A stretch of DNA of 64,000 nucleotides from Reinekea thalattae (GTDB lineage Bacteria > Pseudomonadota > Gammaproteobacteria > Pseudomonadales > Natronospirillaceae). Of this stretch, positions 60,064-62,562 are shown in pieces (within the stretch, counting starts at the first letter, position 1; each line of letters opens with the position of its first letter). The stretch lies in NCBI RefSeq assembly GCF_008041945.1, contig NZ_VKAD01000001.1, forward strand, positions 1,984,001 through 2,048,000, given 5' to 3'. The notes beneath the pieces were generated by a model. That model saw only the letters and a program-made list of their open reading frames with translations. It made no database searches and was not told where the DNA came from. Position numbers and translations under genes: made by a program.

Positions 60064-60465
60064 TCAGCCTATTGTCTGAGCTAATAGATGATCAATAATA
60101 GGGATGTCAGCAGCGCTCCATGGCAGCTGCTGCAATTCTGACAACGGCAGCCAACGAATAAGATCGTGATCGACACAGTTGAAATCGCCGCATAACCAAC
60201 GAACTTGAAAGGCATGCAGATCGATTATTTTATCCGGATAACGATGTCGTGAGGTTAACAAAAAGCGTTCTACTCGAACCTCAATAGCAAGCTCTTCTGC
60301 AAGCTCTCGCACTAAACACTGCTCAAGCGTTTCACCCAATTCCAACTTGCCACCAGGAAACTCCCAGTAGCCAGCATGTTCCTTATGGGCAGCACGGCGA
60401 GCACAACAAATACGATCATCTTTGACGATTACTGCTGCTGTGACGTCTATTATCACTGGCGGCAT
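60064..60465 (-). CDS. Nudix hydrolase, MutT/NudG-like, 133 aa
   Basis: This is a nucleotide pyrophosphohydrolase. The Nudix box is complete at about residues 35-57: G-x5-E-x7-RELAEEL followed by AI. The preceding HAGYWEFPGGK is typical of MutT/NudG. The protein starts VTAAVIVKDDRICCARR. It may sanitise oxidised or methylated nucleotides; family resemblance to NudG and MutT does not decide the substrate. Its ATG overlaps the TGA of the TetR gene (TGATG), so it is probably translated by coupling. Confidence 0.9.
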   Translation of the reverse strand: MPPVIIDVTAAVIVKDDRICCARRAAHKEHAGYWEFPGGKLELGETLEQCLVRELAEELAIEVRVERFLLTSRHRYPDKIIDLHAFQVRWLCGDFNCVDHDLIRWLPLSELQQLPWSAADIPIIDHLLAQTIG

Positions 60466-61028
60466 CAAACGATTCCTTTACGCCAAGCGGCTAATACACG
60501 ATCAAAATAATCAGAATCATTGGTGCCCTGAACCAAAATCGAAGCGCCATGCAATGTCGCCAATAATTGGCTTGCCAATAGCAACCCTTCGGCTTCATCA
60601 ACAGCATTTAAACGCATAAACACCTGAGTCAACCAATTCAGTAATAATTCATAAAACTGAGCCAGCTCAGTTGCTACTCGCTCGGGCAATAGCGGTTTAT
60701 CAGCGGTTAAAATGGTACACAGACTCATATTGTGTTGATCGACTATCTTGCCTTTGAAGCCTGCGATAAAGCCTTCTAATAACTCAATTGCCGATTTAGC
60801 GTCACTCATCGGATCAGGTAGTTGCTGCGCAAATTGCTCGGTATAGCGCTCCATAACAGCCGCCACTAAATCACCCTTGGTAGGGTAATGATAATGAACA
60901 CTGGCACTTTTAATGCCGACCTCTTCGGCAATATCACGAAAACTAAAATTGCCGTAACCCGATTCGATAATAAAGCTTTCACCGGCGTCCAATAATCTTT
61001 GTTTTGTGCTTTGTTTATCTACGCTCAT
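60465..61028 (-). CDS. TetR/AcrR-family transcriptional regulator, 187 aa
   Basis: The N-terminal HTH covers about 9-55 (TKQRLLDAGESFIIESGYGNFSFRDIAEEVGIKSASVHYHYPTKGDLVAAVMERY). The remainder is a helical ligand-binding domain without recognisable specificity. It is divergent from a dihydrolipoyl dehydrogenase gene. Two palindromes of the same type lie in the shared promoter region, one close to its own start codon. This supports autoregulation and control of lpd. The Nudix gene follows with a 1-bp overlap. Confidence 0.92.
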   Translation of the reverse strand: MSVDKQSTKQRLLDAGESFIIESGYGNFSFRDIAEEVGIKSASVHYHYPTKGDLVAAVMERYTEQFAQQLPDPMSDAKSAIELLEGFIAGFKGKIVDQHNMSLCTILTADKPLLPERVATELAQFYELLLNWLTQVFMRLNAVDEAEGLLLASQLLATLHGASILVQGTNDSDYFDRVLAAWRKGIV

Positions 61029-61050: not shown

Positions 61051-61070
61051 TATCTATCACTTGGTAGATA
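61051..61070. promoter_or_regulatory. TetR-type operator 1, next to the tetR-like start
   Basis: TATCTATCACTTGGTAGATA is a near-perfect 20-bp palindrome with core CTAyCA-CT-TGGTAG. It lies 22 bp upstream of the TetR-family start codon and just upstream of the lpd -35 element. Confidence 0.7.
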
Positions 61071-61075
61071 TTCTA

Positions 61076-61105
61076 TTGACCTACCCTAAAGCTACAAGCT
61101 ATATT
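61076..61105 (+). promoter_or_regulatory. sigma-70 promoter of lpd
   Basis: TTGACC (61076-61081) and TATATT (61100-61105) are separated by 18 bp. Operator 1 lies immediately before the -35 element and operator 2 immediately after the -10 element, so repressor binding would bracket the polymerase site. Confidence 0.65.
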
Positions 61106-61107
61106 TT

Positions 61108-61127
61108 ACCTATCAAGTGGTAGATAG
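61108..61127. promoter_or_regulatory. TetR-type operator 2, over the lpd transcription start
   Basis: The core CTATCAAGTGGTAG (61110-61123) is an inverted repeat that matches operator 1 in both half-sites. Its position overlaps the predicted +1 of lpd. Confidence 0.7.
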
Positions 61128-61146
61128 ATTATATAGGTGGTTCAAT

Positions 61147-62562
61147 ATGACTTACGATGTTGTCGTGTTAGGTAGTGGTCCTGGCGGTTATGCTTCGGCG
61201 TTTCGAGCAGCCGATTTAGGTTTAAAAGTCGCGCTCATTGAACGCTATAAAACTCTTGGGGGTGTTTGTCTCAATGTTGGCTGCATTCCCTCTAAGGCGT
61301 TATTGAGTGTTGCAGGTAAGATTCGCAGCGCTGAACAAACAGACAAGGGCATTAGTTTTTCAAAACCTACTATTGACCTTGAAGCCATTCGCCAACATCG
61401 CCAAACCACTGTCGATACTCTGACAAACAATCTAGCGTTAATGGCAAAAGGCCGTCATGTCGATGTTTATTACGGTGAGGGAAAGTTCGTCAGCACCACA
61501 GCAATGACCGTTAGCAACCAAAAAGTTCAGACAAGCCTAGAGTTTAAACATGCCATCATTGCGGTTGGCTCAAAAGCTATTAAATTGCCTTTCATTCCTC
61601 ACGATGATCCTCGTGTACTCGATGCTACCAGTGCACTGCAATTAGAGCGTATTCCAAAGCACTTACTCGTCATCGGTGGCGGTATTATTGGTTTAGAAAT
61701 GGCAACGGTGTATCAAGCACTCGGTGCTGGAGTAACGATTGTTGAATTAGGCAACCAAATCATGACCGGTGCCGATAAAGATTTAGTACGGGTTTTTCAA
61801 CAGGCGAATAAAGACAAATTCAACTTCTTAACCCAAACTCAGGTGACTGACGTGACAGCAACACCAGAGTCACTCAAGGTATCAATGACCAACAAAGACG
61901 ATGGATTCTCTCTAGACGTTGATGCGGTACTGGTTTCTATTGGTCGATCGGCTAATGGCAATACCTCTAATATTGCAGAAATTGGCGTTAAAACCGACGA
62001 TCGAGGCTTTATTCTAACTGACGATCAAGGACGAACATCTGTCGAACATATTTTTGCCATTGGTGATGTGACTCATGGGCCAATGCTTGCTCATAAAGCA
62101 GCTCATCAAGGCCATATTGCAGCCGAAGTCATTGCTGGACATTCAGCTCATTTTCAAGCCTTAGCGATTCCATCCATTGCTTATACTTATCCAGAAGTTG
62201 CTTGGGTAGGGCTTACAGAAGAGCAGGCAAAAACACAAAACATAGCCTTCAAAACCGCTGTTTTCCCATGGAGTGCCAGTGGCCGTGCTATTGCAGCTGG
62301 CAATGCTGCAGGAAAAACAAAACTTATTTATGAGCAAAAAACCGAACGACTGCTCGGTGCTGGCATCGTAGGCGATCATGCTGGTGAATTACTGGGCGAG
62401 TTAACCTTAGCAATAGAGTTTGGCGCAACCTTAGAAGATATTGCACTAACAATCCACGCTCATCCCAGCTTGCATGAAACCATTGGACTGGCGGCAGAAC
62501 TTGGAGCTGGCACCATTACTGATTTGCCAAATAAAAAAGCGCTGCTCAGTCACAGCAATTAG
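61147..62562 (+). CDS. lpd: dihydrolipoyl dehydrogenase, 471 aa
   Basis: This FAD/NAD flavoprotein reoxidises dihydrolipoamide in 2-oxoacid dehydrogenase or glycine cleavage complexes. The FAD motif is VVVLGSGPGGYASAF (about 5-19), the redox disulfide is GGVCLNVGCIPSK (Cys41/Cys46), and the NAD motif is LLVIGGGIIGLEMA. The C-terminal HAHPSLHET carries the His-Glu pair. ATG 61147 follows AGGTGG; an upstream GTG lies inside the operator and is unlikely. No E1 or E2 genes are adjacent, and a TetR regulator probably controls it, so this may be a specialised paralogue. Confidence 0.94.
   Translation: MTYDVVVLGSGPGGYASAFRAADLGLKVALIERYKTLGGVCLNVGCIPSKALLSVAGKIRSAEQTDKGISFSKPTIDLEAIRQHRQTTVDTLTNNLALMAKGRHVDVYYGEGKFVSTTAMTVSNQKVQTSLEFKHAIIAVGSKAIKLPFIPHDDPRVLDATSALQLERIPKHLLVIGGGIIGLEMATVYQALGAGVTIVELGNQIMTGADKDLVRVFQQANKDKFNFLTQTQVTDVTATPESLKVSMTNKDDGFSLDVDAVLVSIGRSANGNTSNIAEIGVKTDDRGFILTDDQGRTSVEHIFAIGDVTHGPMLAHKAAHQGHIAAEVIAGHSAHFQALAIPSIAYTYPEVAWVGLTEEQAKTQNIAFKTAVFPWSASGRAIAAGNAAGKTKLIYEQKTERLLGAGIVGDHAGELLGELTLAIEFGATLEDIALTIHAHPSLHETIGLAAELGAGTITDLPNKKALLSHSN

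Follow-up and report, generated by a model that had tools for sequence, protein, structure and literature searches.

The window analysed here, the whole 64,000-nucleotide stretch from Reinekea thalattae, holds two genes that diverge from a common control region. On the minus strand lies the gene of a TetR-type repressor (60465..61028), a protein of 187 amino acids with a single cysteine, Cys104, recognized by its PF00440 TetR_N match (8.6e-11) and by its closest solved folds, which are of the TetR family. On the plus strand lies lpd (61147..62562), which encodes a dihydrolipoyl dehydrogenase of the E. coli LpdA type, 471 amino acids long (TIGR01350, 479.3 bits for a cut-off of 408.8). Its start is read as the ATG at 61147, preceded by a ribosome-binding site, AGGTGG, seen by direct reading (61135..61140, plus strand); the automatic ORF listing puts the start at a GTG, at 61117. 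As the sequence-only reading had claimed, this lpd stands alone, flanked by the divergent tetR and by a convergent gene (mnmE by eye), with neither E1 nor E2 genes as neighbours. Reading the neighbours by eye revealed no gene for a peroxidase, a lipoyl protein or a 2-oxoacid dehydrogenase beside the pair. To the right of the cassette, mnmE, yidC, rnpA, dnaA and dnaN were recognized by eye (L088:6595-13628), which places it beside the conserved replication-origin gene block.

A MutT-like Nudix hydrolase gene (60064..60465, minus strand; PF00293/PF14815) follows tetR. Its ATG shares one base with the stop codon of tetR (TGATG), and it is probably co-transcribed with tetR. A part in the system had been attributed to this enzyme, which has to be abandoned: no match to the Nudix gene was found among the ORFs of 80 named loci or in 21 other genome stretches. 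It is a non-conserved neighbour, rejected as a partner of tetR-lpd, and lies outside the conserved unit.

Two 20-bp palindromes, which have no strand of their own, are found in the control region at a centre-to-centre distance of 56 bp: operator 1 (61051..61070, TATCTATCACTTGGTAGATA) and operator 2 (61107..61126, TACCTATCAAGTGGTAGATA). By direct reading, operator 1 and the reverse complement of operator 2 are identical at 17 of 20 bases. The common half-sites noticed in the sequence-only reading are thus real; operator 1 lies where it had been located, and the core of operator 2 (61110-61123) is part of a longer site. When the window was scanned with a consensus derived from these two operators themselves, allowing up to three mismatches, four matches were obtained (the two sites on both strands) for 0.01 expected from shuffles. 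The promoter that had been described between the operators, TTGACC-N18-TATATT, is present at 61076-61105 on the plus strand, with its -35 element TTGACC at 61076..61081 and its -10 element TATATT at 61100..61105. It scores 10/12 in the promoter scan, which gave 2 hits in the window for 3.6 expected, and the score alone is not significant. The lpd promoter is accepted because of its conservation in all 27 divergent tetR-lpd loci: TTGAC stands 6 bp from operator 1 in every one of them, and TATATT is found at the -10 position in 20 of the 22 Marinomonas loci. For tetR, a possible promoter, TTGTAG-N16-TAGAAT (61070..61097, minus strand), can be read directly, below the scan threshold. Operator 1 lies next to the lpd -35 element and overlaps the presumed tetR -10 element and start, and operator 2 lies over the presumed lpd transcription start.

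Both operators match perfectly a family motif of 18 bases, WYCTAYC-N4-GRTAGRW, which was searched in 11 genomes together with a reversed-pattern control. The 2,942,562-base host genome contains exactly two perfect sites, both at tetR-lpd, for none with the control. In two Marinomonas genomes (G057 and G059, loci L108 and L119), too, the only two perfect sites are those of the tetR-lpd pair. Two genomes (G005 and G016) have a single perfect site, upstream of lpd; four (G008, G019, G058 and G069) have one before lpd and another without evident target. G001 has no perfect site, its lpd site having one mismatch, and G066, which has no lpd, has three perfect sites without evident target. No sensible target was found at six of these extra sites examined in other genomes, a set that does not include G066 C3:161622. 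A wider regulon was rejected in the host genome, since the remaining perfect site of a shorter, 16-mer form of the motif (C1:747310) falls within coding sequence, and a near match (C3:35102) lies where another gene ends.

The association of the motif with this type of repressor extends far beyond the host. With at most one mismatch, the 18-mer precedes 61/80 related tetR genes and 0/900 of the other ORFs predicted in these loci; with two mismatches allowed, the figures become 70/80 and 14/900. These 80 named loci are the best 80 of 486 confirmed relatives, include many sister species and served in part to derive the motif, and the 900 control ORFs are longer than 150 amino acids and exclude the two closest to tetR on each side. 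The order operator, 6 bp, TTGAC, operator is kept in 27/27 divergent tetR-lpd loci, which comprise the host locus, 22 of Marinomonas, one of Marinimicrobium and those of three genomes of the host's family. The conservation script sought a site 3-14 bp before TTGAC, so the constant 6-bp gap was not imposed. The spacing between operators is 56 bp in 20 of these loci, 57 bp in two, 59 bp in two, and 60, 61 and 66 bp in one each. The operator 1 position is occupied in all 27 loci, by a poor site (3 mismatches) in three loci of the host's family, and the operator 2 position holds in all of them a site with at most one mismatch. That the palindromes occur by chance, or belong to another regulator, is hardly credible: the third perfect 16-mer site of the host genome, in its coding region, and the target-less perfect 18-mer sites of 5/11 genomes, with a control matching once in 2/11 (G057 and G066), weigh little against the window scan, the contrast at related tetR genes, the invariable order, the two genome-wide perfect sites and the co-occurrence of operator and TetR. 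Their predicted behaviour as operators is thus supported.

Co-occurrence was further considered from the side of the enzyme. An LpdA-type lpd is present at 30 loci. At 17 of these a TetR of the same subfamily is adjacent, and all 17 have the operator (at most one mismatch); in two others (G001 and G008) the operator is present and tetR is elsewhere in the genome. The remaining 11 have neither an adjacent TetR nor an operator, even at two mismatches. As judged by eye, three of these genes are in E1-E2-like operons (L047-L049), two carry an N-terminal lipoyl-type domain (L215 and L217), one is an unclear long frame (L216) and one is beside ABC-transporter genes (L218); the others are L044 and L212-L214, the last three having no E1 or E2 within 1.5 kb by eye. 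The LpdA-type lpd genes of L212, L213 and L214 belong to another family and are 58-59% identical. At L218:2910-3620, a different TetR-like reading frame, seen by eye, follows the lpd beside the ABC-transporter genes. In Reinekea G2M2-21 and in Saccharospirillum, lpd and tetR are arranged in tandem, with one operator before lpd. The conservation in relatives by which the sequence-only reading proposed to judge the pair is thus found, first of all at the 27 divergent loci; many marine bacteria carry the pair together with its sites and promoter. The genomes show that tetR and lpd diverge, have one short control region in common and keep the operator-promoter-operator order across genera; the two genes are best explained as a self-contained regulatory cassette. 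That they form one circuit is further deduced from the two genome-wide perfect sites, the 27/27 order and the 61/80 versus 0/900 motif counts. At another locus (L080:6130-7107, G046:C19), tetR and lpd are both truncated at the 5' end and the control region is gone. Two overlapping remnants are left, which indicates that the pair can be lost.

The origin of the pair was approached through the trees of both proteins, in which the host copies group with Marinomonas and not with the host's own genus. The clades tested were named only after the first tree had been seen, and the Lpd trees were built without the Lpd row of G012; with these settings, grouping the host Lpd with seven rows of the host's family is rejected (log-likelihood 151.69 lower, p-AU 9e-74), and the seven rows without the host copy are not rejected (p 0.10). 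For TetR, the host copy with six host-family rows is rejected (80.57 lower, p 3e-69), and the six rows alone are weakly rejected too (17.52 lower, p 0.016). Grouping of the host copy with G001 and G005, of the same genus, is rejected for Lpd (p-AU 2e-6) and for TetR (p-AU 9e-9). A Marinomonas clade without the host copy is not rejected (p 0.077 for Lpd and 0.395 for TetR), and the host copies may lie inside or beside Marinomonas. The GC contents of tetR (43.1) and lpd (45.1) are like that of the window (45.9), so composition is uninformative on transfer. Since both trees place the host copies with Marinomonas and own-genus grouping is rejected, tetR-lpd probably arrived as a single unit, with Marinomonas or a close relative of it as the donor.

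The enzyme itself has the hallmarks of an E3, which are a CxxxxC disulphide and a C-terminal HPxLxE motif: Cys41, Cys46, His439 and Glu444 are invariant in 8/8 homologues. It is an extra copy. The sequence-only reading proposed to look for another lpd, and a second one was found in a sucAB-lpd-sucCD cluster (suc genes by eye, E2 by PF00198); the idea that the tetR-linked gene is the sole lpd of the genome was therefore rejected. The tetR-linked product is 55.5% identical to E. coli LpdA and 39.0% identical to the genome's own sucAB-linked Lpd. The E. coli gene, for all this common identity, is part of pdhR-aceE-aceF-lpd, whereas the host gene stands alone opposite tetR. A solitary Lpd is known from pseudomonads, whose third enzyme (LPD-3/Lpd3) is encoded apart from E1-E2 operons in genomes that also encode another Lpd; it is not known to have a TetR partner or operator.

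The resemblance to the E. coli aceEF-lpd type, together with a host aceEF without lpd (none of the seven Pyr_redox_dim genes of the host genome is at aceE-aceF), could suggest that this Lpd is the normal housekeeping E3 of the pyruvate dehydrogenase complex, TetR merely tuning its level. The distribution of both proteins makes this quite improbable. Pyruvate dehydrogenase E1 was found in 57/57 relatives, as against 12 of the same 57 for an LpdA-type Lpd at 50% identity or more. Within the order, an LpdA-type lpd was detected at E 1e-120 in 29 of 390 genomes and 12 of 142 genera, the 29 including operon-linked and lipoyl-fused LpdA-type genes. Moreover, all eight Marinomonas genomes searched that have tetR and no adjacent lpd (L129, L131-L136 and L155) contain no Lpd above about 40% identity, which means that pyruvate dehydrogenase must work there without an LpdA-type Lpd. 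Given the second Lpd, the rarity of the LpdA type next to the constant E1 and these eight Marinomonas genomes, the tetR-linked Lpd looks dispensable to the normal complexes.

Additional hints about its role come from the genes that the same operator precedes elsewhere. In the 80 loci, with at most one mismatch, these are lpd in at least 25 cases (a lower bound, the lpd of G012/L178 being absent from the ORF calls), a short-chain dehydrogenase (SDR) in 11, a GST in 11, a ChrR-type cupin in 4, an amine oxidase in 3, a VOC-like protein in 3, an MFS transporter in 2 and a CMD protein in 1, one to three members of each class having been checked by Pfam and the VOC-like member, without Pfam match, being named by eye. 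Single further cases are an ALDH-like gene and a DapA-like gene, located more than 200 bp away from a site in common with tetR, and an ORF of 105 amino acids; in G006, sites stand before an MFS gene. In six loci (L144, L149, L150, L162, L166 and L187), tetR does not share the motif-bearing promoter. At L068:5362-6621 (G054), the interval from a TPR gene to a DJ-1/PfpI gene contains three motif-like sites (5362, 5570 and 5624), and a weaker site (6602) precedes tetR. The common theme of these predicted operator-controlled genes is detoxification.

The AlphaFold model of the repressor (pLDDT 92.6, pTM 0.86) has nine helices and the features of the TetR family, namely an N-terminal helix-turn-helix, a helical C-terminal domain and TetR-family structural matches. 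Its nearest solved folds are 3on4 from Legionella (Z 22.9), 2g7s from Agrobacterium (Z 21.2), NemR (Z 20.7, rank 3) and PA2196 from P. aeruginosa (Z 20.2). The first two are the nearest solved relatives by both sequence and fold, and their structure listings give no function; 3on4 has a Gly at the Cys104 column and a Cys at the 102 column. The NemR match (rmsd 2.5 over 182 residues, 16% identity) is tied with those of 2g7s and PA2196 and ranks 7 in Foldseek. A subfamily profile aligns with NemR along its full length (E 1.5e-10, rank 17), the better-ranked named chains including HlyIIR, the haemolysin II regulator (residues 3-137). No NemR model appeared among the NCBIfam matches, the best of which, PsrA (partial, residues 4-75), ScbR and AcuR, are all far under their cut-offs. 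NemR is described as a cysteine-based repressor of detoxification genes and a sensor of electrophiles and bleach (PMC5297802, PMC7464077).

A cysteine is kept in most members of the subfamily. Cys104 is kept in 75/81 TetR proteins, a Cys is found at 102 in 47/81, and one of the two in 78/81, these columns having been pooled after inspection of the alignment. The three exceptions (L135, L136 and L155) are from Marinomonas genomes without an LpdA-type Lpd. The tetR genes of L129 and L131-L134, also without lpd, retain Cys104. NemR Cys106 aligns to column 102, two residues before Cys104, which is Ser102 in the host and Cys in 19/35 proteins; NemR Lys175 aligns to Gln167, in a column with Gln in 14, Arg in 12 and Lys in 7 of 35. 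The Cys106-Lys175 switch of NemR is hence absent from the host TetR. The systems also differ in their genetic layout, E. coli nemR-nemA-gloA being a tandem arrangement and the host genes being divergent, with lpd as the target. NemR-type control of nemA and gloA was not found, the only perfect operators of the genome being at tetR-lpd. By analogy, the host TetR may work like NemR, yet it is not NemR.

How the circuit might operate can be outlined from the position of its elements. A TetR dimer would, with high confidence, bind each palindrome; with the same confidence, occupancy of operator 2 would cover the lpd start, and a dimer on operator 1 would abut the lpd -35 element and cover the presumed tetR promoter. 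From these operator positions it follows that the repressor should shut off both lpd and tetR itself, both of which would rise upon loss of binding. The 56-bp operator spacing corresponds to 5.3 helical turns, which would not favour a tight DNA loop, and simple blocking should suffice. TetR very probably switches this spare lpd on and off through the two matching sites. With moderate confidence, the repressor would be released when a reactive electrophile or oxidant modifies Cys104 or acts in the adjoining pocket, and the production of E3 would rise. The added Lpd could, as a guess, serve to re-reduce the lipoyl groups of 2-oxoacid dehydrogenase complexes under stress, or else, equally a guess, to reduce quinone-like compounds with NADH (diaphorase activity). 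Overall, we assign a probability of roughly 0.6 to an accessory tetR-lpd cassette in which TetR represses lpd and itself, an electrophile or oxidant releases it through Cys104, and extra E3 is made.

The nature of the signal is where another explanation has to be weighed, namely that the circuit is the same and responds to an ordinary small molecule bound non-covalently in the TetR pocket, Cys104 being structural. Most studied TetR repressors do bind their ligands non-covalently, many of them are encoded beside detoxification genes, and a conserved Cys can be structural; in the present subfamily, the targets elsewhere include MFS transporters and SDRs, and the switch residues of NemR are not at the matching positions. 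We nevertheless consider this less likely, given that a Cys at 102 or 104 persists in 78/81 proteins despite very different targets, being missing only from three copies in genomes without this lpd, and that NemR is among the nearest folds. The detoxification targets, the conserved cysteine and the NemR likeness together designate an electrophile or oxidant as the likeliest signal, and a redox or electrophile role is, by analogy, our best guess. A more elaborate version of the electrophile reading, put forward tentatively, would be a cassette for electrophile response that moves horizontally and has a single target. Its repressor, NemR-like and cysteine-based, would make a spare E3 a stress-inducible defence (lipoyl repair or quinone reduction) instead of a housekeeping enzyme, and the cassette would represent one branch of a shared-operator subfamily with interchangeable detoxification targets.

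Lpd, together with SucB and AhpD, reduces a mycobacterial peroxidase. The three proteins are named among peroxidase reductants in PMC8176726. The same source describes CssR of Corynebacterium glutamicum, also a stress repressor of the TetR type, whose target operon is divergent and whose targets are other ones. Among the papers listed in literature searches (15 of 106 in one of them, most subscription journals lying outside their coverage), none dealt with a TetR-controlled solitary lpd or with this operator. A TetR-controlled stress gene is a known theme, and lpd as its target is unusual. The tetR-lpd pair provides, for an E3 that is not part of its complexes, a mapped unit of regulator, operators and target. 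Through the operator motif, one TetR subfamily, present in gammaproteobacteria, alphaproteobacteria and other groups, is linked to detoxification genes. Should the inducer prove to be an electrophile, E3 would act as an inducible defence, and the motif would assist target prediction in the genomes that carry this subfamily.
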